DNA from: a virus
Length of the DNA stretch: 64,000 nt
Direction: 5' to 3' (one strand)
IMG/VR virus record: IMGVR_UViG_3300049440_000308
Location: 62,001-126,000 of that record
Position 1 is the stretch's first letter. Every line of letters begins with the position of its first letter. The position numbers and the translations under genes are program-made. Below, piece after piece: positions 551 through 59,815 of the stretch. Under the pieces are notes generated by a model. The model did not search any database. It was given only the letters and a program-made list of their open reading frames with translations, and had not been told where the DNA came from.

Positions 551-989
551 CGCGTACGCGGTGATCACCCCGGCGGGGGAACTGTCCTGGTACCCGCTGA
601 GCAAGACGGCCGAGGTGGAGGCCCTGGTTGGCGGGACGGTCGCCCCGGGGGCACTGGACACGGTGACGGTGGCCCCTGCCCGTATCCCGGGGCGCGGCCC
701 GCTGAAGTGCCTCGCCTCCGACATCGGGGCGCTGTTCCCTGACGACTACCCGGCTAACCCGCTAGCGGGGTGGGTGCTCATGTACCTGTCCGGCGGCCGG
801 TATGACCAGGCATCGTGGCACGGCACGGTCGCCCTCACCGAGTATTCGGCCGACCCGGTTACCGGCGAGGTGCTGTGGCCGGGCGAGATGTCGCCCCGCT
901 GGGCGGATGTCATCACCGTCGCGGTGGGCCGTGCCCGGGAAGCCCTGAGTACGAAGGGAGCCGATCATGGCGATACGCCGCGTGCCTGA
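543..989 (+). CDS. Hypothetical protein, possibly DUF3846-like
   Basis: Start chosen at the ATG overlapping the preceding stop, not at the longer upstream ATG (471), which would overlap the previous gene heavily. The 148-residue protein has AYAVITPAGEL near the start and a NPLAGWVLMYLSGG segment in the middle. Its arrangement of a beta-rich N-half and an NPxA-type core is reminiscent of DUF3846 phage proteins, but I cannot confirm this. Function unknown. Confidence 0.6.
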   Translation: MTDAYAVITPAGELSWYPLSKTAEVEALVGGTVAPGALDTVTVAPARIPGRGPLKCLASDIGALFPDDYPANPLAGWVLMYLSGGRYDQASWHGTVALTEYSADPVTGEVLWPGEMSPRWADVITVAVGRAREALSTKGADHGDTPRA

Positions 990-1299
990 GATCACCGCCG
1001 AGCAGGAGAACTTCCGGGTTGAGCCGGTCGACCTGGGGCCCCGCGTCCGCGCGGTCACCGTCCGCCGTGACCCGGTAGAGCCCGTCCCGGCCGGCACCTA
1101 CGTGGCCATGGTGTTCCGGGTAACCGGGTACGACCGGGACTGCGACGGTCACCTGATGGCACGGGTGGAGAACGTGGGCGCGGACGGCGAGGCGACCGGC
1201 TGGGAGCAGAACTGCCTCGGTCTGTCCCCGGGGAGCACCTGGGTTATTGACGGGCCGGGCGAACTGGACACGATGACGGAAGGCGGCGGCGAGCGGTGA
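967..1299 (+). CDS. Hypothetical beta-rich protein (110 aa)
   Basis: ATG with upstream GAAGGGAG ribosome-binding site inside the end of the previous gene. Predicted beta-rich (VRAVTVRRDP ... AGTYVAMVFRVTGYD), no membrane segment. No family recognised. The stop overlaps the GTG of the following small gene by four bases. Confidence 0.6.
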   Translation: MAIRRVPEITAEQENFRVEPVDLGPRVRAVTVRRDPVEPVPAGTYVAMVFRVTGYDRDCDGHLMARVENVGADGEATGWEQNCLGLSPGSTWVIDGPGELDTMTEGGGER

Positions 1300-2262: not shown

Positions 2263-2498
2263 CCGAGGATGACCCGCTGACGGGCTTCAGCCCGGACGAG
2301 GCGCTTGAGGAGATCCGCGAGCTGACCAGGGGATTCGGCACGCGCCTGGCGATCTTGGTGCGCCAGCTTGACAACTGCATCGTCCGCTCCGGGGGGACGG
2401 CCCTGCCGCAGGAGTGGCAGTACGAGCCTGCCGTCCACTTCGAGCGCCTGACGAGGAACCAGCCGAGGCGGACGTCAAGGAAGGAGCGGCGACGGTGA
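2259..2498 (+). CDS. Hypothetical protein (79 aa)
   Basis: Helical with a basic C-terminus (RRTSRKERRR). Starts MTEDDPLTGFSPDEALEEIREL. No domain recognised; soluble. Stop overlaps the GTG of the next gene. Confidence 0.55.
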   Translation: MTEDDPLTGFSPDEALEEIRELTRGFGTRLAILVRQLDNCIVRSGGTALPQEWQYEPAVHFERLTRNQPRRTSRKERRR

Positions 2499-2902
2499 GC
2501 GGCGACGGCCTGTTCGCGGGCATGCCCCTTGAGGTTGACCCGGAGATGCCGCCCGGCACGGTCGACCTGCGCTCAGGCAGGCACTGGCGCCGGATGGTGC
2601 TGCCTGACGCGGTGCGCGTGAAGGCGGACGCCCTGCTGCAGCGCGCCGACGCCGACCCGGAGTTCGCCGCTGAGCTTGCCGAGGAACTCGCTTCCCTCGC
2701 TGAGTCAAGGGACCTCATCACCTACCCGGGGGAGATGACGGCGCCGGAGGCGTGCGGGGCGTGCGGCACGCCGGTCACGCTCGTGCCCGAGAGGCCAGTG
2801 AGCGCCCCGCGTGACAGCGACCTGGAGCTCGCGCGGTGGGAGACAGCGCAGTGGCGCAAGCACACCCCGCGACGGTGCGAGGCGATGCGGGAGGAAGCGT
2901 GA
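2495..2902 (+). CDS. Hypothetical protein with one CxxC (135 aa)
   Basis: GTG start selected because it overlaps the previous stop and follows AAGGAGCGGCGA; the longer frame from 2414 would bury the upstream gene. The sequence has an acidic helical middle (DPEFAAELAEELASLAE) and EACGACGTPVTL, a possible zinc-binding pair. Function unknown. Confidence 0.6.
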   Translation: MSGDGLFAGMPLEVDPEMPPGTVDLRSGRHWRRMVLPDAVRVKADALLQRADADPEFAAELAEELASLAESRDLITYPGEMTAPEACGACGTPVTLVPERPVSAPRDSDLELARWETAQWRKHTPRRCEAMREEA

Positions 2903-3240
2903 TGACCCTCCGCGCACGGTTCGCCCGCAGGCTCCGCTTCGCCGCTGACCGTATTGACCCCGCCGGGGCGCCGAGGGCCATGAGCGCCTCGTTCACATTC
3001 GAGGAGCGGACTGGGATCGTGTTCCGGGATGACGGCCGGGGATGCCGCCTGTGGTACTACGCGGACTACGAGCGGGCGCACGACGAGGCCGGGCCGACAG
3101 CCAGCGGGAGCACGGAGGTGTGGCTGCCGCAGCGGGTCCCCGCGGGCACCGTGCTCACCGGACGGCACCGCGAGCCCGCGCCCCCCACGGCCGCTCCCGT
3201 GTTCACCATGACGTTCAACGTCCCGAAGGAGCCCGGATGA
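2902..3240 (+). CDS. Hypothetical protein (112 aa)
   Basis: Either the GTG at 2899 or the adjacent ATG at 2902 can start it; both overlap the previous stop. Basic N-terminal helix (LRARFARRLRFAADRI), then a mixed region with GCRLWYYADYE, and a proline-rich end. No family recognised. Confidence 0.55.
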   Translation: MTLRARFARRLRFAADRIDPAGAPRAMSASFTFEERTGIVFRDDGRGCRLWYYADYERAHDEAGPTASGSTEVWLPQRVPAGTVLTGRHREPAPPTAAPVFTMTFNVPKEPG

Positions 3241-3650
3241 TGAGCGACGACAACCCGCGCGATGCCTGGGAGCTGAGCCGTCACCGCTACGAGCAGGCGC
3301 TCGCCCGGGTGGAGGCCGCCGTGACCGCCGGCTGCCCGCCGGGGGACCCTGACCTGCTCAACGAGATGCGGATTATCCGGATGGTCGGGATCACCCGGGC
3401 ACCGTGGTACGGGATGATCATCGACCCGGAGGACAGCAGCGTCGACGTCGGCGTGATGATGCGCAACGCCTTCGAGGCGGTAGGCGACCACGTTGACTAC
3501 CCGACGGACAAGGGCCTGGAGACGCGGGCCCGGCACTACTTCACCCTGCGGTACCTGCCGTTGTGGCGGCGGGGCAAGCGCGAGTACCACCAGTGGCTGG
3601 ACACCCTGAGCTTGCAGAGGCCGCCGGAACGGGAGGCACCCGGTGACTGA
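3237..3650 (+). CDS. Hypothetical protein (137 aa)
   Basis: The ATGATG start overlaps the preceding stop. Helical, charged protein with PWYGMIIDPEDSSVD in the middle and an aromatic/basic C-terminal part (LRYLPLWRRGKREYHQW). It resembles other unassigned actinophage proteins in style, but I recognise no domain. Confidence 0.55.
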   Translation: MMSDDNPRDAWELSRHRYEQALARVEAAVTAGCPPGDPDLLNEMRIIRMVGITRAPWYGMIIDPEDSSVDVGVMMRNAFEAVGDHVDYPTDKGLETRARHYFTLRYLPLWRRGKREYHQWLDTLSLQRPPEREAPGD

Positions 3651-5800: not shown

Positions 5801-7461
5801 CCGGCTGCGCTACCTGCTGGAACTGCAGCGGCGCGCGGCGAGGATCAAACCGGGGGTCGCCCGCTACTACCATGACCCGCTGGCGTTCGCCGCCGACTGC
5901 ATCGACTGGCGCGGTACTGACGGGCTGACCGGCTACCAGGAGGACATCATCGGGGGCCTGCCGCAGCGTAAGCGCACTGCGGTCCGCGGCCCCCATGGAT
6001 TAAGGACTAGGCAAATCGGCTATCTCCGCGGTGACGGTCCTGTGGTTCGCGCTGACCAGGGACGCCGCCGGGGTCGACTGGAAGGTCGCGACGACCGCCG
6101 GCGGCTGGCACCAACTGACACAGTACTTGTGGCCGGAGATCCACAAGTGGTCCGGGCGACTGCGCTGGGACAAGGTCCGCGACGGCCGGCCGTTCACCCG
6201 GTCCGAGCTGCAGAACCTGAACCTGCGGCTCGCCCACGGGCATGCCTTCGCGGGGGCATCCGCTAACGCCGCCCTGATCGAGGGCGCGCACGCCGACTCG
6301 CTGCTGTTCGTGTTCGACGAGTCCAAGGCGATCCCCGCGGGCACCTTCGACGCCTGCGAGGGCGCGTTCTCCGGCGCCGGGGAGGGCGGTACCGAGGCGT
6401 TCGCCCTGGCCCTGTCGACCCCGGGGGCACCGCAGGGCCGCTTCTACGACATCCAGTCACGCCGCCCCGGTTACGAGGACTGGCACCCTGTCCACGTTAC
6501 CCTCGCCGCCGCCATGGCCGCCGGGCGGATCACCGCCGAGTGGGCACGGCAGCGCCTGCGGCAGTGGGGCGAGCAGTCAGCGATCTACCAGAACCGTGTC
6601 CTCGGGGAGTTCCACGCCGAGGACGAGGATGCGGTCATCCCCCTCGCCTGGGCGGAGGCCGCAGTGGAACGCTGGCACCAGTGGGAGGCCGCGGGCAAGC
6701 CCGACACGGGCAGGCCTCGTACCGTCGGCGTGGACGTCGCCCGGTTCGGCGGAGACAAGACGGTCCTCGCGGTCCGCAACGGCCCGGTGATCACCGAACT
6801 GCGCCGGTACACCAAGGAAGACACCATGGCCACCACCGGCCGCGTGAAGGGCATCCTGGCGGCGGACGACTCCCGCATCGCGGTGGTCGACGTGATCGGC
6901 ATCGGCGCCGGGGTGGTCGACCGGCTCCGCGAGCAGCACGCCCGCGTCGTGGCGTTCAACGCCTCCCGTGGCTCCAAGGCCCGTGACAGCACGAGGGAGA
7001 TGGGCTTCTACAACCGCAGGAGCGAAGCCTGGTGGACGCTCCGGGAAGCCCTCGACCCGTCCGCCGGCCCTGACATCTGCCTGCCCGATGACGAGATGCT
7101 CCTCGGTGACCTGTCCACCCCTAAGTGGGAGGTCCGTTCCGGAGGCAAGATCCTGGTGGAAAGCACCGATGACATCCGGGAGCGCATCGGCCGTTCCCCC
7201 GACGACGGAACCGCGGTCGTGCAGGCGTTCGTCCCGCATCTCGGCGACGCCTCGCCGGCCACCGTCCGCCAGTGGGCCGGCGCTGCCGGCCTGGCTGACA
7301 TGGGCGTGAACGAGGAAACGAAAGCGCACAGGCGGATGCGGGAGATTCAGGGGCGCGCGGCGGAGGGCCTTGAGGACGCGCCTTGGGATCTAGACGGTTT
7401 CGGCCCGCAGGACGAGGCGGAGGCGAGGCCTCGCGGCAACAACGTCAGGACATGGCGGTAG
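5772..7461 (+). CDS. Terminase large subunit, frame-disrupted in the Walker A motif
   Basis: The DNA-packaging ATPase/nuclease. The first frame (from ATG 5772) reads to TAVRGPHGL; the second frame continues as GKSAISAVTVLWFALTRD to the stop at 7461. Together they give the P-loop GPHGLGKS, but 7 extra bases (6003-6009) separate the frames, so direct reading loses the motor. Walker B is LLFVFDES. The RNase-H-like nuclease acidic residues are in VGVDVARFGGDKT and VVDVIGIGAGVVD. Full length about 560 aa is normal for the family. It may be inactivated, a sequencing/assembly error, or rescued by a short translational bypass between the two GGA codons at 5997 and 6004. Confidence 0.8.
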
Positions 7462-13141: not shown

Positions 13142-14850
13142 CAGCCGTGACCACGTCCGCCCCTCCGCCGCAGCAAGGCCAGCCGCCGCCTCCGCCGCCG
13201 TCCGGCCTTGACGACCCGGCTCTTGCCGTCGCGGTCGCCGCGATCCTCGCGGGCATCCTCGGCCCCGCCATTACCGCCGCTGCCCTCGCCGCGGCGCTGA
13301 AGCGGTTCGCCCTGACTGCCGCCGCCCTCGGTGCCCTCGCCGCGGTACTCGGCCTGGTGCTCGACCACCCCCCGGCGGTCACCGGCACCATAGGGGCCGC
13401 CTCGGAGCAGGTAATGCGGATGAACGCGGCGCGACGGGCCCAGTACGCGACAGCGGCGGCCCGGCGGGTGCTGGCAGCCGAGCGGGAGGCGCGGGCGAAA
13501 GGCGAGCCCGTGGAGGCGGCGCGGACGGCCGCGCTCGAGCGGGAACGGCGCTATTACGAAGCCCATCAGGCAGCCATGTGGAACAGGGCGGTGGCCGCGG
13601 GCAGGACGGACATGACGGCGGCGGAGCTCGGCGATTTGCTTGGGTGGAACGCGATTCTGGACCGTCGCGTCTCGGCGGAATGCAGGGCGGCGGACGGTAA
13701 GAACTACTATGCGTCATCAATGCCTGACGTGGGGTACCCGGGCGCCGTTCACCCGCACTGCTTCCCGGCGGGCACGACGGTGGCGTCACCGTCCCTTCGC
13801 GCCGCCGCGGTGCGCTGGTACCGTGGCGAACTCATCGAGTTGACGACCTTCCGTGGGCACCACCTCGCCGTCACCCCAAACCACCCGGTACTGACCTCGC
13901 AGGGATGGGTCGCGGCGGGCCTGCTCCGCGAGGGCGCCGATGTAGTCAGCACTCGCCTCGGACAGGCGCTTCTTAGCCTGGTCGACCCACACGACTACCA
14001 GCAGCCAGCCTTGATCGAGGACGTACTGGGCGCGTTCAGCGAACATCCCGGCGTGCTTCCCCGAGCCGTGCCAGTTGCCCCCGAAGATTTCCACGGCGAC
14101 GCCGGCGGCCGGGATGGTGAGGTCGCAGTTGTATGGGCCGACCGCATGCTGGTGGACGACCTCGTGGCCGCGCATGCGCAGCCACGCCGCGTACAGCAGT
14201 TCAGTCGCGAGAGCGGGCACGGTGCCGTGCCGCCGCTTGGCGAGTTCGCACCGCTGCTCCCACGACCTGACCGAGCCCCGTGCGGCGTCATGGGCCGCCT
14301 GGGAATTGCGCGCGTTCTCCTCGGGGGTGCGGCCGGTCATCATGAGCCGGTTGGCGTCGGCGTTGCCGCGGCGCGGAATCCCGTGGCGCTCCAAGATCCT
14401 CTTGATGACGACCCGGCTGCAGTCGTGCATCTTCGCCAACTCGTTCTCACTGGCGCCGTCGGTGTAGGCAGCGCAGATGAAGTCCTCGGGGAAGTCGCGC
14501 GCGGCGAGGCGCGTACCTTGCCCGCGTTCCATGGCAAGGTTGTTGGCAGTCTTCTGGTCACGGAAGGTGCCGCGCTCGGTGAGGCGCGCGATCAGCAGCC
14601 GCCTGGGGACGTTCAGGTCATCGGCGATGCACTGGTATCCGAGGTCGCTGCTCTCGTAGAGTTCGACCGCCTTGTCGATGTTCGCCGTAGGACGGCCTGG
14701 TCTGGGCATGTGTTTAACCTCGAATCATCGGTTGGCTGGCTGATCACCGACAATATTATCACACATAACTGCCGCTGCTTTCCCGGACCACCACACCCTG
14801 GCGGGAAGCTCCTGCCGGGCAGCAGGCCGCCGCGTGCGAGGGCCGCGTGA
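13138..14850 (+). CDS. MuF-type minor head protein interrupted by an intein
   Basis: 570-residue precursor. The host protein is residues 1-207 plus 545-570: an Ala-rich N-terminus with hydrophobic helices, then RYYEAHQAAMWNRAVAAG and DRRVSAECRAADGKN, ending HPH^CRCFP, the cysteine/histidine end of the phage Mu gpF/SPP1 gp7 minor head family (binds portal or enters the cell with DNA). The intein (residues 208-544) splits HPHC from RC. After splicing, about 233 aa remain. GTG start overlaps the previous stop. Confidence 0.75.
   Translation: MTAVTTSAPPPQQGQPPPPPPSGLDDPALAVAVAAILAGILGPAITAAALAAALKRFALTAAALGALAAVLGLVLDHPPAVTGTIGAASEQVMRMNAARRAQYATAAARRVLAAEREARAKGEPVEAARTAALERERRYYEAHQAAMWNRAVAAGRTDMTAAELGDLLGWNAILDRRVSAECRAADGKNYYASSMPDVGYPGAVHPHCFPAGTTVASPSLRAAAVRWYRGELIELTTFRGHHLAVTPNHPVLTSQGWVAAGLLREGADVVSTRLGQALLSLVDPHDYQQPALIEDVLGAFSEHPGVLPRAVPVAPEDFHGDAGGRDGEVAVVWADRMLVDDLVAAHAQPRRVQQFSRESGHGAVPPLGEFAPLLPRPDRAPCGVMGRLGIARVLLGGAAGHHEPVGVGVAAARNPVALQDPLDDDPAAVVHLRQLVLTGAVGVGSADEVLGEVARGEARTLPAFHGKVVGSLLVTEGAALGEARDQQPPGDVQVIGDALVSEVAALVEFDRLVDVRRRTAWSGHVFNLESSVGWLITDNIITHNCRCFPGPPHPGGKLLPGSRPPRARAA
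13759..14769 (+). other. Intein (Hint domain) within the minor head gene
   Basis: 337 codons. It starts with Cys in CFPAGTTVASP (block A), then GHHLAVTPNHPVLTSQGWV (block B with the TxxH motif). It ends with HVFNLESSVGW (block F) and NIITHN followed by Cys+1 (block G). The middle reads PEDFHGDAGG and GEVAVVWADRML, which I recall from other phage mini-inteins. No same-strand endonuclease is evident; the opposite strand carries one. Confidence 0.85.
13786..14709 (-). CDS. Homing endonuclease-like protein antisense to the intein
   Basis: 307 aa, read opposite to and almost entirely inside the intein. The N-terminal half has two helix-turn-helix-like units (DKAVELYESSDLGYQCIADD; SENELAKMHDCSRVVIKRIL). 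The C-terminal half has YNCDLTIPAAGVAVEIFGGN followed by WHGSGKHAG and LVVVWVD, the pattern of Vsr/EDxHD PD-(D/E)XK homing nucleases. ATG preceded by CGAGGTTAAACAC and, further up, by GATAAT. The composition is that of a true protein, not a mirror frame. It probably mobilises the intein. Confidence 0.75.
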   Translation of the reverse strand: MPRPGRPTANIDKAVELYESSDLGYQCIADDLNVPRRLLIARLTERGTFRDQKTANNLAMERGQGTRLAARDFPEDFICAAYTDGASENELAKMHDCSRVVIKRILERHGIPRRGNADANRLMMTGRTPEENARNSQAAHDAARGSVRSWEQRCELAKRRHGTVPALATELLYAAWLRMRGHEVVHQHAVGPYNCDLTIPAAGVAVEIFGGNWHGSGKHAGMFAERAQYVLDQGWLLVVVWVDQAKKRLSEASADYIGALAEQARRDPSLRGQYRVVWGDGEVVPTEGRQLDEFATVPAHRGGAKGR

Positions 14851-21996: not shown

Positions 21997-22283
21997 GCGC
22001 GATGAGGCCCGTCTACGTCGACGGCCCGCTCGAAGGCGGGGACCTCAGCATGCCGGACGACCTGGCCGTGGTCTACGACCTGCCCGGCGCGAGGGCCCCT
22101 GAACCGCAGGGCACCTACCGGTTCTTCCCGTACCGGTTCGCGGGGGGAGGCAAGGTGGTCACGGTCACGATCGGGTACTGCGGTGCCGAGCCGGACGCGG
22201 AGGCGGTCGCCCGGGCGCTGCTGAAGCCTGAGATATTCGAGCGCGCGGAGGTATGCGACATGACCGGGGACCTGGCGCGATGA
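21993..22283 (+). CDS. Hypothetical protein (96 aa)
   Basis: GTG start. DLAVVYDLPGAR, YRFFPYRFAGGGKVVTVTIG: beta-rich. Unassigned; stop overlaps the ATG of the next gene. Confidence 0.45.
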   Translation: MSAMRPVYVDGPLEGGDLSMPDDLAVVYDLPGARAPEPQGTYRFFPYRFAGGGKVVTVTIGYCGAEPDAEAVARALLKPEIFERAEVCDMTGDLAR

Positions 22284-23365
22284 GCATCACCGGGCAGGCC
22301 CTTGACCTAGCATTCAACCCGCTAGAGCCTCGCGACAAAGAGGGCCGGTTCTTCCACGGCACCACCGACAAGTACCAGCCTGGCGATGTCATCGACCCCG
22401 CTAAGCCGCACCGTGCCAACTTCGACCCGGAGCACAGCGAGCCGAAGTCGGTTTACTTCGCGGCGAAGGCAAGGCAGGCGATGCACTACGCGGAACGGGA
22501 CAAGGGCGGCCTGGGTGACCCTCACGTCTACGAGGTCGAGCCGACAGGCGAGCACTGGCCCATCGCCCCGGGCGTCACCCAGTACCAGACGAAACACCCG
22601 CTGCGGGTCATCAGGGAGGTAGACCCCGCTACCGAGATGGCGGCCGCGACGATCACCGGGCAGGCGCTTGACCTTGCACCCGCCGGCATCACCGCCCAGG
22701 CTGCCGGAAGCGCCCCGGACGTCACCCTCGCCAGGGGGTACGAGCTGAATCCCCGTTCCGGCATGATCTCCCTTGACCTGCCGCCGGGAACCATCCCGGC
22801 AGTACCGGGCGGGGTGACCGACTTTCACGTGACAGTTGTTTACCTCGGCCCGGACGTGGATGATGAGGCGCTCGCGGAGGCGTGCGAGAGGGCACAGGCC
22901 GCCGCGACGGCAATACCCGGGCCGCTACTCGGGACGGTCGGCGGGATCGGCACCTTCCCCCCGTCCGGCGGCAGCGACGGGAAGGTCCCCGCATGGGCAG
23001 GGGTGCTGCTGCCCGGCGCGGAGCGGCTCCGCTCAGCCCTGGAAGACCTCTCGGCGAGCGAGCACAAGAACTGGCATCCGCATGTCACCCTCGCGTACGT
23101 GGACCCCAGCGAGGCCCTGCCCCCTCCGGTGCCCGCAACGCAGGTCATGTTCGCTTACCTGTCAGTGCACCGGGGCGACGATGAGGTGAGGCGGTTCCCG
23201 CTCGGCGGAGGGACGGAACTAGCCGGGGAGACGATCAGCGGGCAGGCGGGCCCGGCATCCCCGGGTACAGGGGACGGGGGAGCAGTCAGCGGGCAGATGG
23301 CGGGCACCCCGCTAGCGGAGCGGCTTGACCTGGCAGGCCGCCCAAAAGCATCAGCGGCCAGCTAG
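22280..23365 (+). CDS. Arr-type ADP-ribosyltransferase fused to a 2H phosphoesterase
   Basis: 361 aa. Residues about 15-120 match the rifampin ADP-ribosyltransferase (Arr) pattern: GRFFHGTTDKYQPGDVI, VYFAAKARQAMHYA, HVYEVEPTG, TKHPLRVIREV. Residues about 150-310 carry two HxT motifs (FHVTVVYLG; HPHVTLAYV) of 2H phosphoesterases (LigT/2'-5' RNA ligase-like). A repeated I[ST]GQ linker (ITGQALDLA twice, then ISGQ, VSGQ) continues into the next frame. Arr uses NAD to modify a substrate; 2H enzymes cleave cyclic phosphates or 2'-5' links. Likely virion cargo or anti-defence. Ends at a TAG just after a slippery site. Confidence 0.75.
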   Translation: MSITGQALDLAFNPLEPRDKEGRFFHGTTDKYQPGDVIDPAKPHRANFDPEHSEPKSVYFAAKARQAMHYAERDKGGLGDPHVYEVEPTGEHWPIAPGVTQYQTKHPLRVIREVDPATEMAAATITGQALDLAPAGITAQAAGSAPDVTLARGYELNPRSGMISLDLPPGTIPAVPGGVTDFHVTVVYLGPDVDDEALAEACERAQAAATAIPGPLLGTVGGIGTFPPSGGSDGKVPAWAGVLLPGAERLRSALEDLSASEHKNWHPHVTLAYVDPSEALPPPVPATQVMFAYLSVHRGDDEVRRFPLGGGTELAGETISGQAGPASPGTGDGGAVSGQMAGTPLAERLDLAGRPKASAAS

Positions 23366-55115: not shown

Positions 55116-55709
55116 ATGTCGGGATACACGGGCACGATGTTCGAGGAACTGTACTCGCTCCCGGTCGCGGTCACGAAGAACACCTACACGACGATCGCCC
55201 CGGTCTCCGCCGCCGCCGCCACGTCAGTACCGCGCTGCGTCATCCCGGCGGGGTACTTCAGCGCGGCCGGCAAGTCGATTAGCTACCGGGCCAGGGGCAC
55301 GCTCCAGTCCGCGGCGGGCACGGCGACGTTCTCTTTCACCGGGGGGCTCGACTCAACGGCGGCGACGCTCGGCAAGACGCTGTTCGCGACGGCGAACCTG
55401 ACCCCGGCCACCGGCACGGCCGTGTTCGACATCGAGGGCGACATCGTTGCCCAGGCAGTCGGGCAGGCCGGGACGACGCTTCAGTCGAACGGCTCAGTGC
55501 GGGTGGCGGGCACCACCGCGAACGCGTGGCTCACGTCGCTGGCCGCCACGGGCGGCGCGGCGGCAGGCGCCCAGGTGCTGTTCTCGAACAGCGTCACCGC
55601 GCTGGACAACGAGGTGAGCCAGTACCTTGAGCTGTTCGGCACGTGGTCCGCGTCGTCGGCGACCAACTCGACTGTCCTTCAGGTGTTCAAGGTGTACGGC
55701 GAGAACTAG
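55116..55709 (+). CDS. Tail/baseplate beta protein (197 aa)
   Basis: GTMFEELYSLPVAVTKNTYT, RCVIPAGYFSAAGKSISYRA, TATFSFTGGLDSTAATLGKT, SVTALDNEVSQYLELFGTWS: a regular beta sandwich common as small tail-surface proteins next to tailspikes. Unassigned. Confidence 0.5.
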   Translation: MSGYTGTMFEELYSLPVAVTKNTYTTIAPVSAAAATSVPRCVIPAGYFSAAGKSISYRARGTLQSAAGTATFSFTGGLDSTAATLGKTLFATANLTPATGTAVFDIEGDIVAQAVGQAGTTLQSNGSVRVAGTTANAWLTSLAATGGAAAGAQVLFSNSVTALDNEVSQYLELFGTWSASSATNSTVLQVFKVYGEN

Positions 55710-55747
55710 CCGGAGCGGCCAGGGGCCAAGGTAAGGGAGGTGCCGCC

Positions 55748-58700
55748 GTGGCCGTGACCGTTGACGCCGTAGGCCCGTCTTCCTCCGGCCAGGCATCCGC
55801 CAGCGCCACCGCCCTTACCTGGACGCACACCGCCGGGGCCGGCGGCACCGCCGTGCTGGCGTGGGTCGGCTGCGTCGCCTCTGACGGGGTTGCCCTTTCC
55901 TCCATCACGGTGACCGTCACGTACGGCGGCACGCCGATGACGCTGCTGGCGCCCGGCGTCCCGGCCGGCGGCCCGGCGGCCACCACCGCCGGCGGCATCT
56001 TCGTCTTCGGCCTCACCGGGGCGCCGGCCGGGGCCAGCACGGTCTCGGTAACCGTCAGCGGGGACAGCGGCAACGCCGGCGGCAACGAGGGCGGCTCGGT
56101 CTCCTATAACGGCGCGGGCGGCTTCGGGACGCCGGGCACCGCGGGAAGCAACGGCGCGGCCGTCGCGTCCGGGACGGTCAGCGCCGCCGGCACCGCCTCC
56201 GGCAACCTGGTCGCCGCCGGCGTCGTCTGCGGGTCAGGCCCCGGGGTCACGTTCACCGCCCCGGCCGCCGGCGACGTCTCCTGCGCGAACAACAGCCTCT
56301 CCGGCGCCGGGTACCTGGGCATCTCGCACACGGCCTCGTCGTCCGGCACGGTCAGCACCGCCTGGACGCAGACCTCCGACTACTACGGCGCCGTGGCCGT
56401 CGAGGTCGTCGCGGCGGGCGCCGCCCCCGCGGTCGCGCCGCAGCCGCAGCCGCAGCCCGGAGGGCGCGCTTACCGCCGCCGCTGGCGGCGTGCCCAGCAG
56501 CGGGTGCTCACTACCGCGCCGGCTGCGGCTCCCGCCCAGTTCACCGAGGCGGGGGCCGCCGCGGACTCCCTGGGCGTCTCCTCCGCGGTGACACTCACGG
56601 AATCCGGCGCCGGCGCCGACCGGGGGCCGCTGGGGCCTCCCTATATTGCCGGGCTAGGGGGCGGCACCGGGACCGCCGGGTACTTCACGGACCAGTACGG
56701 GAACCCGCGCATCCTGTGGCTCGAGATGGCATGGGGCCTGCCGGGCAACGCGGGCCGGTGGAACAGCGGCAACTGGCAGTCCGACATGGACGCCTACTTC
56801 GCCGCCCGGGCAAGCCAGGGCTACACGGGCTGGTGGGGCGTCCCGTGGATCAACACCATCATCGACCCGGGCGCCGTCCACGCGGACGGCCGCACCTGGG
56901 ACGGCATCTACCCGCTGACAGTCAACGGCACCCCCGGGAGCATCGCGACCGGCAGCGAGACGCTAGGGCTCAACGGCAGCTTCTGGGCGCGGACCGACTA
57001 CATGGTCTCGTCGGCGCTCCGCAACGGGATCACGGTCTTCCTGAACCTGGGCATGGGCTACGACTTCTCGCAGTCCGGGTTCATCTGGCAGCACCTGAGT
57101 ACTACGCAGGCGCAGGCGTTCGGCGCGCTGGTCGCCGCCCGGTACCCGCAGGGCACCTACCCGAACCTGCAGTGGGTGTTCGGCGACGACACGCTGGCCG
57201 GCGCGTACGATACCTACTTCTCCGCGATGCTGACCGGGGTCCGGGGCACGGGGGACACGCGCAACGCGGTTGCCGTGGAGCAGCTGCTGGAGACCAACTG
57301 CCACATCGAGTTCGACACCGGGGCCGTGTACGTGCCCGGCGGGTTCGGCGTCACGAGCGCCCAGTGGAACCACGTCTACACCTACTGCCCTCCGTACCTG
57401 GCCGTTGAGGACTCCTACACCGAGTCGGGGACCACGCTGATCCCGGTCGTGTGGGGTGACGGCGCCTGGCACGGGGACACTGACAACGGCACGCCGGAGT
57501 ACACCATCCGCCGGCAGACCTGGTGGGCGCTGGCCTCGGGGGCGCGCGGCGTCAACCAGACGGCCGGGCCCTCGAATGCCGCCACCGCCACGATCTGGAC
57601 CTGGCAGTCCGGCGCGGCAGCGGGACTGGCATCCGACCCCGCCGGGCCGTGGTGCACGACCACCGGGCCGGCGGTCAGCGCGTACTTCACCAGCCTGCCG
57701 GGCTGGCACAAGCTCGTCCCGGACACGGGAAGCGCGCTGGTGACCAGCGGCCGGGGTTCGAAGTCCACTAGTGCCGCGCCCGGTTTCACCCCGGCCAACT
57801 CGTACGGCGACACCGACAACTACGTTGCCGCCAGCCGGGTCAGCGACGGGTCCCTGGCGGTCATCTACTGCGGGCAGCACTTCAGCATCACCATCGACCA
57901 GGCCAAGATGGCAGCCGGGTACACGGCCACCTGGGTTGACCCGTCGTCACTGGCCGTGACCGCGGCCACGGCCGGCTCCTCCTACAACTCGACTCCGCAG
58001 GGTAACAACAGCGCGGGCAACCCGGACTGGGTACTGGTACTCCAGGCATCTGTCACGGCTGCGTCACTGCCTGAAGCCGGCTCCGGTACCGACGCCCTGG
58101 CGGTCTCGCAGCCGGCCGGCCTCAGTGAGCCCGGCACGGCAAGTGACGCCCTCGCACTGGCGGGGCCGGCTCCGCTGGCAGAGACGGGTGCCGCGGCCGC
58201 CGCCCTGGCGGTCGTGCAGCCGGCGCCCTTCACTGAGGCGGGCGCCGGCGCGGATGCCCCCGGGATCATGCCGGGCCTTGCTGACACCGGGCAGGCCGCC
58301 GACACGCTCGCTGTCACGCTGGCCTCACTGACCGGGCTGACGGACGCCGGGGCCGGCACGGACAGCCTGGCGGTCGCACAGCCGGCCCCGCTGACGGAAA
58401 CAGGCGCGGGGTCTGATGCCCTGGCGCTGGCGCAGCCCGCAGGGCTCCCCGAGGCGGGCGCCGGGGCGGACGCGCTCGCCATCGCGGAACCCGCCAGCCT
58501 CACGGAGAGCGGCACCGGCACTGACCTTCTCGGGACCGTGCCGGGGCTGGCCGAGTCCGCCGGCGGCGCTGACGCGCTCGCGGTCTCGCAGCCGGCCCCG
58601 CTGAGCGAAGCGGGCACCGGGACCGACGCGATCGCGGTCTCGCAGCCGGCCGCGTTCCCGGAGTCCGGCACGGGCGACGGCCTGCCGGCGGTGACGCAGC

Positions 58701-59815
58701 CCACGGGGCTGGCCGGCAGCGGCACCGGGTCGGAGGCACTGTCGGTTACGCTCGTCACGCTCGCCGGCCTGACTGAGGGCGGCTCGGGAGCCGATGCCCT
58801 TGCGGCCGTCCCGGTCGCGCCCCTGAGTGAGTCCGGTACCGGGGCGGACGCCCTCGGGGCCATGCCAGGGCTCACCGGGACGGGCGCCGGCGCTGACGCG
58901 CTCGCGCTAGCCCAGCCGGCCGCGCTCACGGAGGGGGGCACGGGCGACGGCCTGCTCACGCTGGCGCAGTTCACGGGCCTCGCCGAACCTGGCGCGGTCA
59001 CGGACACGCTGGGGATATCGCAGGCCGCCGCCGTCGCCCTGGCCGAGTCCGGGGCGGGGGGTCCTGAGCAGCTTGGCGTGATGCCGGGGCTCGCCGACAC
59101 GGGCACGGGCTCCGGCTCGCTGGCGCTGGCGCAGCCCGCGGGGCTCACGGAGGCCGGCGCCGGGGATGAAACCCTGGCGCTAGCCCAGTCGGCCAGCCTG
59201 GCGGAGGCCGGCGCCGGGGCGGACTCCCTGGGTATCCCCAGCCTCAGCGTGATCAGCCTCGGCGAGGCCGGCGCAGGCAGTGACACGCTCGCCGTCACCG
59301 CCGGCACGGTTCCGCTCACGGACGCCGGGGCCGGCACAGACAGCCTGGCGGTGATGCAGCCCGGCACGGGCAGCACCGGCACCGTCACCTGGACGGCTCA
59401 TCCTGCCCCGCCCCGCTGGCGGGCCTCGCCTGCCCCGCCCCGCTGGAGGATCATCATGGCACTGTTCGAGCCGATCGCCGCGATCAGCCTGGAAGAGGTC
59501 AACGTCACCTGGCTGTCCCGGCTCGCCGGGACGACGGTTGACCCGACGGGCGTGAGCGAGGGGTCCACGCTGCTGCCGGTTCAGATGGCCTTCCCGGTAT
59601 CATCCGGGAACCCTGCGCTTCCCGCGGAGCCTGTTACGTGGTTCGCGGCGTCATGGCTGCTCGGCGGGACCAGCATCGGCTACATAGCGCAGGCGCTAGT
59701 CGGCCCTGGCGGGACAGTGACGCTGACCGCCGGCATGACCTATGACTGCTGGTCAAAGATAAGCGGGGCGCCTGAGAGTCCAGCGAAATTCGCCGGCTCG
59801 ATCGAGGTGTACTAG
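55748..59815 (+). CDS. Tailspike with DUF4038-like glycosidase and tandem repeats (1355 aa)
   Basis: GTG after TAAGGGAGGTGCCGCC. Residues 1-230: beta sandwich (AVTVDAVGPSSSGQASASAT). About 298-740: TIM-barrel glycoside hydrolase of the DUF4038/apiosidase-like type (YFTDQYGNPRILWLEMAWGL; TGWWGVPWINTIIDPGAV; PNLQWVFGDDTLAG; TIRRQTWWALASGARGV) with a C-terminal beta module. About 772-1205: 24 repeats of 16-20 residues, L[ST]E[AS]G[AT]G[AT]DxLAVxQPA, with two more before the enzyme domain. Likely digests host surface glycans. A second start at 59456 would yield the C-terminal domain alone. Confidence 0.7.
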   Translation: MAVTVDAVGPSSSGQASASATALTWTHTAGAGGTAVLAWVGCVASDGVALSSITVTVTYGGTPMTLLAPGVPAGGPAATTAGGIFVFGLTGAPAGASTVSVTVSGDSGNAGGNEGGSVSYNGAGGFGTPGTAGSNGAAVASGTVSAAGTASGNLVAAGVVCGSGPGVTFTAPAAGDVSCANNSLSGAGYLGISHTASSSGTVSTAWTQTSDYYGAVAVEVVAAGAAPAVAPQPQPQPGGRAYRRRWRRAQQRVLTTAPAAAPAQFTEAGAAADSLGVSSAVTLTESGAGADRGPLGPPYIAGLGGGTGTAGYFTDQYGNPRILWLEMAWGLPGNAGRWNSGNWQSDMDAYFAARASQGYTGWWGVPWINTIIDPGAVHADGRTWDGIYPLTVNGTPGSIATGSETLGLNGSFWARTDYMVSSALRNGITVFLNLGMGYDFSQSGFIWQHLSTTQAQAFGALVAARYPQGTYPNLQWVFGDDTLAGAYDTYFSAMLTGVRGTGDTRNAVAVEQLLETNCHIEFDTGAVYVPGGFGVTSAQWNHVYTYCPPYLAVEDSYTESGTTLIPVVWGDGAWHGDTDNGTPEYTIRRQTWWALASGARGVNQTAGPSNAATATIWTWQSGAAAGLASDPAGPWCTTTGPAVSAYFTSLPGWHKLVPDTGSALVTSGRGSKSTSAAPGFTPANSYGDTDNYVAASRVSDGSLAVIYCGQHFSITIDQAKMAAGYTATWVDPSSLAVTAATAGSSYNSTPQGNNSAGNPDWVLVLQASVTAASLPEAGSGTDALAVSQPAGLSEPGTASDALALAGPAPLAETGAAAAALAVVQPAPFTEAGAGADAPGIMPGLADTGQAADTLAVTLASLTGLTDAGAGTDSLAVAQPAPLTETGAGSDALALAQPAGLPEAGAGADALAIAEPASLTESGTGTDLLGTVPGLAESAGGADALAVSQPAPLSEAGTGTDAIAVSQPAAFPESGTGDGLPAVTQPTGLAGSGTGSEALSVTLVTLAGLTEGGSGADALAAVPVAPLSESGTGADALGAMPGLTGTGAGADALALAQPAALTEGGTGDGLLTLAQFTGLAEPGAVTDTLGISQAAAVALAESGAGGPEQLGVMPGLADTGTGSGSLALAQPAGLTEAGAGDETLALAQSASLAEAGAGADSLGIPSLSVISLGEAGAGSDTLAVTAGTVPLTDAGAGTDSLAVMQPGTGSTGTVTWTAHPAPPRWRASPAPPRWRIIMALFEPIAAISLEEVNVTWLSRLAGTTVDPTGVSEGSTLLPVQMAFPVSSGNPALPAEPVTWFAASWLLGGTSIGYIAQALVGPGGTVTLTAGMTYDCWSKISGAPESPAKFAGSIEVY
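58063..59362 (+). repeat. 24 coding tandem repeats in the tailspike
   Basis: Degenerate repeats of 48-60 bases encode units such as LTDAGAGTDSLAVAQPAP and LTEAGAGDETLALAQSAS. Asp follows the [AT]G[AT] turn in most units. Some units are shorter and end with MPG instead of AxPA. In-frame throughout. Confidence 0.8.
59456..59815 (+). CDS. Possible separate C-terminal tail protein by internal start (119 aa)
   Basis: In-frame ATG preceded by CTGGAGGATCATC, a strong ribosome-binding site inside the tailspike. Product starts MALFEPIAAISLEEVNVTWL and ends GSIEVY: beta-rich. The Pro/Arg-rich sequence before it (HPAPPRWRASPAPPRWR) looks like a linker. Either a separate gene whose stop upstream was lost, or a dual-start protein. 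Confidence 0.45.
   Translation: MALFEPIAAISLEEVNVTWLSRLAGTTVDPTGVSEGSTLLPVQMAFPVSSGNPALPAEPVTWFAASWLLGGTSIGYIAQALVGPGGTVTLTAGMTYDCWSKISGAPESPAKFAGSIEVY

Follow-up and report, generated by a model that had tools for sequence, protein, structure and literature searches.

Can the two complementary strands of one short stretch of DNA encode both a protein-splicing element and the nuclease that would spread it? The question is raised by a MuF-type head gene in a virus represented by an IMG/VR record (IMGVR_UViG_3300049440_000308; 131,159 bases). Bases 62001-126000 of that record were analyzed, and this stretch of 64,000 nucleotides is referred to here as the window. An initial annotation, made from the letters of the window alone, had read the head gene as interrupted by an intein whose DNA encodes a homing nuclease on the opposite strand. 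The analysis presented here confirms this observation and supports the reading given to it. The locus is very probably a self-contained homing intein of phage MuF genes, and its nuclease is an antisense gene with start signals of its own. A broader proposition is also considered reasonably likely: that such loci form a class of inteins, widespread but so far undescribed, whose splicing protein and homing nuclease are encoded by complementary strands of about 900 shared bases and whose C-terminal motifs double as nuclease promoter, ribosome-binding site, and start codon.

The interrupted head gene and the frame opposite its intein

A single open plus-strand frame (13138-14850; 570 aa) reads through the MuF N-extein, the intein, and the C-extein (Table 1). 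Upstream of this frame are genes for a terminase (6031-7461) and a Mu-type portal protein (8285-9895). The intein motifs CFPAGTT, TPNHPVL, HVFNLES, and NIITHN/C occur in this order (the slash marks a splice junction here and below), with a nucleophilic Cys at residue 1, T-x-x-H in block B, and the HN of block G followed by Cys. Residues C1, T39, H42, and N337 are invariant among 44 relatives, the element is in frame with both exteins, and precise empty alleles exist in relatives. The splicing (Hint) domain is modeled with confidence by AF2 (pLDDT about 95), and inteins lead the Foldseek list for this model, the best PDB matches being Mtu RecA and other inteins. Open frame, splicing motifs, and Hint fold thus bear out the earlier reading of a complete intein that splits a MuF-type head protein at HPH/CRC, and protein splicing of the MuF precursor may be expected from these features. 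The sense linker has a pLDDT below 50 at residues 139-181 and 193-292, and in the model the sense side of the overlap is mostly a poorly folding linker. Elsewhere in the window, the plus strand encodes a rifampin ADP-ribosyltransferase-like domain (PF12120, 1e-9) fused to a 2'-5' RNA ligase/phosphoesterase domain (PF13563) at 22253-23365, and, at 55643-59815, a protein of 1390 aa that contains an apiosidase-like glycoside hydrolase domain (PF13204).

Table 1. Positions of the sense and antisense features at the MuF locus, numbered within the window
Feature	Position	Strand	Remarks
MuF-type head (minor capsid) N-extein	13138..13758	+	ends ...HPH; PF04233 (E 8e-4), phrog_115, TIGR01641
Intein, 337 aa	13759..14769	+	precedes conserved Cys of HPH/CRC; blocks A, B, F, G present
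Block B TPNHPVL	13873..13893	+	complement encodes nuclease residues QYRVVWG
Sense linker joining the splicing halves	13960..14658	+	mirrors the nuclease; disorder predicted at residues 139-292
Block F HVFNLE	14707..14724	+	complement holds nuclease start ATG (facing His CAT) and Shine-Dalgarno sequence
Block G IITHN	14755..14769	+	complement holds predicted -10 of nuclease promoter
MuF C-extein	14770..14850	+	begins CRCFPGP
Homing-type endonuclease frame, 307 aa, ATG start	13786..14709	-	wholly inside the intein
Nuclease HTH unit 1 (residues about 11-45)	14575..14679	-	AF2 helices
Nuclease HTH unit 2 (residues about 75-108)	14386..14487	-	AF2 helices; HTH_23/HTH_7/HTH_58 in relatives
Vsr/EDxHD-like catalytic core	14032..14202	-	E170...D196...E207...W213-H214...H219...R226; PF18741, PDB 3r3p, 3hrl, 1cw0
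Shine-Dalgarno core GAGG	14718..14721	-	8 nt upstream of nuclease ATG
Extended -10 element TGT-GATAAT, predicted	14755..14763	-	45 nt upstream of nuclease ATG

The antisense frame stands in exact codon register with the intein, antisense position 3 lying opposite sense position 1. It contains two HTH units and GVAVEIFGGNWHG. The minus-strand protein with two HTH-like units that the initial annotation described is recovered both as an open frame and in the helices of the AF2 model (mean pLDDT 86), where a nuclease domain accompanies the two HTH units; the alignment used for structure prediction left out the phage-record sequences. As a single query, the window nuclease gave only weak matches in Pfam, NCBIfam, and PDB, and profiles were required. 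Profile searches found 3r3p (I-Bth0305I; E 1e-4), 3hrl (1e-6), and also Vsr, and 50 of 70 nuclease members matched PF18741. I-Bth0305I is likewise the top Foldseek match of the model, Vsr also being found, with an E-value that is modest (0.017) because a multidomain model is set against a single domain. Among the 70 proteins, Y193, D196, E207, and R226 are invariant, and E170, H214, and H219 are kept in 67, 60, and 48, respectively; the catalytic residues presumably map one-to-one onto those of Vsr. Homology to the I-Bth0305I catalytic domain, conservation of the catalytic E, D, and H, and the predicted fold support assignment to the Vsr/EDxHD type, as first suggested, and a relationship to the intron homing enzyme I-Bth0305I. 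The protein is probably the agent that spreads the intein.

Recurrence and coding on both strands

The arrangement is not peculiar to the window. With the antisense protein as query, 73 viral loci and 121 phage records were matched (e.g., from phages of Gordonia, Salmonella, Pseudomonas, Klebsiella, Escherichia, Vibrio, and Acinetobacter, among others), the matched records nearly always being annotated just as head or minor capsid protein. Antisense homologues with a conserved EIFGGxWH core, which were specifically sought, are present in large numbers. Of 96 loci selected by their nuclease (the window and 95 fetched loci, including 22 annotated phage regions), 95 have a sense frame of the same phase that crosses the region without a stop, and the intein junctions in this set are HPx/C or a related site. 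In the reciprocal direction, whole-intein queries recovered the antisense nuclease in 81 of 81 loci. Queries with the splicing domain alone gave more than 550 matches; of the 79 best, a selection that favors close relatives, 78 have the antisense frame in this phase together with its nuclease. The search for inteins lacking the antisense frame therefore yielded one example among these 79, a mini-intein (L180) with five antisense stops. This mini-intein occupies the same HPR/CRC site without a nuclease, and it likely represents either a state of nuclease loss or the ancestral form. The phages that carry a MuF-intein antisense nuclease range from 36 to 71% GC, and later matches in Haemophilus phage Aaphi23 (43% GC) and a Helicobacter prophage (36% GC) are equally double-open; a scan of genome contigs found one locus. 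The antisense-nuclease arrangement is a widespread MuF-intein family.

Several individual loci depart from the common pattern. One MuF gene (L055) holds two inteins, a 384-aa intein of another type and one with an antisense nuclease. Two loci (L018 and L032) have one stop each in the antisense frame with the sense frame still open, possibly reflecting the nuclease decay that the homing cycle predicts once an element is fixed. In Salmonella phage vB_StyS-sam, part of the antisense nuclease frame (894-1295, plus strand) is annotated as a hypothetical protein, BBO65996.1; in most other records viewed, the head gene alone is annotated.

In this phase, antisense stops correspond to the sense codons TTA, CTA, and TCA, so that sequence of about 70% GC is often open by chance; antisense openness by itself, at 70% GC, proves nothing. 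The number of stops to be expected was computed from the sense protein and the codon usage of each locus. Across 76 non-redundant loci, 466 antisense stops are expected and 2 are seen; given the nuclease, 347 sense stops are expected and none is seen. Loci found by similarity are biased against stops, though insufficiently to produce a deficit this large. A natural control is provided by Acinetobacter phage BUCT629, in which the MuF gene is intact and adjoins a free-standing nuclease homologue (2348-3241, on the strand opposite to the MuF gene). This homologue carries 9 sense stops against 8.6 expected, and its counterpart in a close relative, likewise on the opposite strand, carries 12. The free-standing nuclease suggests a homing gene without an intein, or an ancestral or derived state of the arrangement. 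When used as a query, it found one 97% copy in viral contigs, whereas the phage records matched were mainly further MuF-intein copies.

Substitutions in 12 independent pairs follow different codons in different parts of the gene. In the exteins, the rates at sense positions 1, 2, and 3 are.157,.128, and.360, position 3 being fastest; in the linker they are.276,.108, and.158, so that the fastest position is the third base of the antisense codon. Sense-silent divergence is.357 in the exteins against.087 in the linker (p 3e-49), the N splicing half being intermediate at.155; antisense-silent divergence is.063 facing the N splicing half and.282 in the linker (p 6e-17). From this silent-site pattern, conservation of the linker serves chiefly the antisense protein, and that of the N splicing half serves both proteins. 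Part of each strand's apparent constraint is mirrored from the other, and it is the position-specific and silent-site tests that separate them. By these comparative measures selection is taken to act on both strands, and the initial impression that both code over about 900 bases agrees with the stop deficits as well as with the strand-by-strand tests of synonymous constraint.

These data bear on two simpler accounts of the locus. The sense protein alone could be real, with antisense openness arising from high GC and antisense conservation from the complement; the window is indeed about 70% GC, and open antisense frames are commonest in the in-register phase that it shows. Yet phages with a GC content of 36-50% also have double-open loci, independent homologues of the antisense protein exist, some of them free-standing, and this protein is modeled as confidently folded whereas the sense linker is not. 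The codon-position test, in which linker substitutions track the antisense codon, refutes this account, to which we assign almost no probability. Alternatively, the nuclease could be real and the intein not a functional splicing element, its sense frame being merely tolerated. The variable, predicted disordered linker would fit such a frame, but the complete lack of sense stops, the invariance of the four splicing residues, the fourfold rarity of antisense-silent changes facing the N splicing half, and the insertion of the element before a conserved Cys of a capsid gene together make it very improbable.

Start signals, probable mobility, and a proposed homing cycle

The C-terminal splicing motifs lie opposite the beginning of the nuclease gene, and codon bias in them was examined in 146 non-redundant inteins. 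The window's nuclease ATG (14709-14707, minus strand) faces the first codon of block F. The same exact alignment of the antisense start codon is found in 119 of the 146 inteins (92 ATG, 27 GTG), and the remaining start codons are mostly 3-12 nt inside. The block F His is encoded by CAT in 92 of 119 cases (background 35%, p 1e-20), which supplies the antisense ATG, and the Leu by CTC in 96 of 134 (background 27%, p 2e-26), which supplies the GAG core of a Shine-Dalgarno sequence. In block G, I-I-T is typically written ATT-ATA-ACA, the antisense of which is TGT-TATAAT, 45 or 48 nt before the start; Ile is ATA in 48 of 86 cases against 13%, and Thr is ACA in 37 of 59 against 14%. A -10 match of at least 5/6 is present in 111 of 146 inteins where synonymous shuffling leads one to expect 40.6, and an extended -10 in 46 where 4.9 are expected; the window's own match is 5/6.

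No -35 box is recognizable; its position would fall in the C-extein. Scans for sigma-70 promoters found none on the minus strand near the nuclease start because such scans require a -35 box, and the nuclease promoter is thus predicted from the extended -10 alone. In a small control drawn from intein C-termini of 388 bacterial genomes, nine heterogeneous C-terminal Hint matches lack the -10 excess (2 against 2.8 expected), and a control search with one unrelated intein matched only itself. The nuclease-free mini-intein, which together with these nine matches makes up the few controls that lack an antisense nuclease, has neither the -10, nor the Shine-Dalgarno sequence, nor the start codon.

Exact empty alleles of the MuF gene, which the initial annotation had named as a check, are common, since joined exteins match relatives without a gap: many Kagunaviruses align to the joined exteins of coliphage Snoke along 600 of 600 bases, and Gordonia phage Vivi2 gives the same result with many relatives. 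Near-identical MuF genes can also carry intact yet unrelated inteins (L076 and L091; L074 and L087), and in another pair (L092 and L093) divergence is far greater in the intein than in the exteins. Sporadic presence and apparent exchange between near-identical hosts fit homing.

A cycle can be proposed on this basis. Late transcription and translation of the sense strand would produce the MuF precursor, in which the N- and C-terminal splicing halves, of about 67 and 38 residues, would fold, excise the intein, and ligate HPH to CRC, while the mirror-translated middle would serve as a mostly passive, stop-free linker. The extended -10 promoter in the block G I-I-T codons would give rise to a short antisense transcript, for which the N-L-[QE] codons of block F would supply the Shine-Dalgarno sequence and the preceding His CAT the ATG. 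Antisense expression would be separate, plausibly early, while late transcription is off. During mixed infections the nuclease would cleave intein-less MuF alleles at the insertion site, and repair of the break would copy the intein together with the nuclease. Splicing, antisense transcription and translation, cleavage, homing, and their timing are all components that we infer from sequence.

Two further alternatives concern how the nuclease is expressed and what it does. The nuclease might be translated from read-through antisense RNA, the -10 being a by-product of A+T-rich Ile and Thr codons. Favoring this possibility, there is no -35, many of the -10 matches are 5/6, and the sense amino acids leave no choice but A at hexamer positions 2 and 5; but shuffling that preserves both amino acids and locus codon usage predicts only 41 matches rather than 111, the spacing to the ATG is mostly 45 or 48 nt, and the mini-intein that is free of a nuclease is also free of the -10. 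We regard read-through as rather unlikely, at perhaps one chance in several. The antisense protein might instead serve a role other than homing (e.g., repression, host DNA cleavage, or the exclusion of competing phages), as its function is supported by homology, HTH units occur in regulators too, and Vsr/DUF559-type folds include non-homing nucleases. Such a role is judged unlikely, given that the nearest profiled homing relative is I-Bth0305I and that the nuclease resides within a sporadic splicing element with exact empty sites and exchange between hosts. The preferred reading remains that of a homing intein with an independently expressed antisense nuclease.

Relation to known mobile elements

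The EDxHD family was reportedly named by Dassa et al. in 2009. Its known homing endonucleases are intron-encoded or free-standing, and also occur between split-intein genes; to our knowledge, none is on record as an antisense overlap of an intein. The MuF-intein nuclease resembles members such as I-Bth0305I in its nuclease fold, its Vsr-like motif, its phage origin, and its multidomain structure with HTH-type DNA binding, and differs in lying antisense inside an intein. Canonical HEN inteins (LAGLIDADG or HNH, e.g., PI-SceI) and the MuF inteins have in common that a nuclease divides the splicing domain, that the element sits in an essential gene ahead of a conserved residue, and that empty alleles exist. 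In canonical inteins the nuclease is on the same strand, in frame, and excised with the intein (PMC3943268), the normal state of affairs with which the initial annotation had contrasted this locus. In contrast, the MuF-intein nuclease is a separate protein of the opposite strand that overlaps even the N splicing half. Classification as a canonical HEN intein was rejected, the nuclease being on the complement in all dual loci, and classification of the window as a mini-intein was rejected because of its antisense nuclease; only L180 fits that description.

The ShiLan-type insertion in phage methylases, an out-of-frame HNH nuclease (PMC11855218), is similar in that a homing nuclease is hidden in another frame while the host frame is left open. 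Unlike the MuF inteins, it is on the same strand, is of the HNH type, and has no splicing domain or detectable ribosome site; this assignment too was rejected, given a nuclease on the opposite strand and a complete Hint domain. Antisense HEGs inside nuclear group I introns (e.g., I-DsqI) provide another parallel, being homing genes antisense within a self-splicing element and with their own expression (PMC9548176), but group I introns are non-coding RNA, and hence there is no double protein coding. Literature searches turned up no account of an intein with a nuclease on its antisense strand, and the initial annotation likewise named no described example. PMC11855218 cites a preprint about inteins of actinobacteriophages with "non-canonical architecture", which could overlap with the present findings, and priority is to that extent uncertain.

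Few natural examples show as clearly as the MuF inteins how two unrelated proteins, both under selection, can be encoded codon against codon by opposite strands. Because the example is replicated in about 150 distinct phage sequences, it allows one to measure how far double coding can go. The MuF inteins also illustrate a route by which a homing nuclease could be expressed at another time than its late structural host gene. The mobile element is portable because its start signals travel within its own splicing motifs. Gene callers drop antisense overlaps, and a whole nuclease family has consequently been missed in phages already described, among them coliphages and Salmonella phages. Both kinds of component are already known from other elements; as far as the literature was searched, what is new is their arrangement and the start signals embedded in it.
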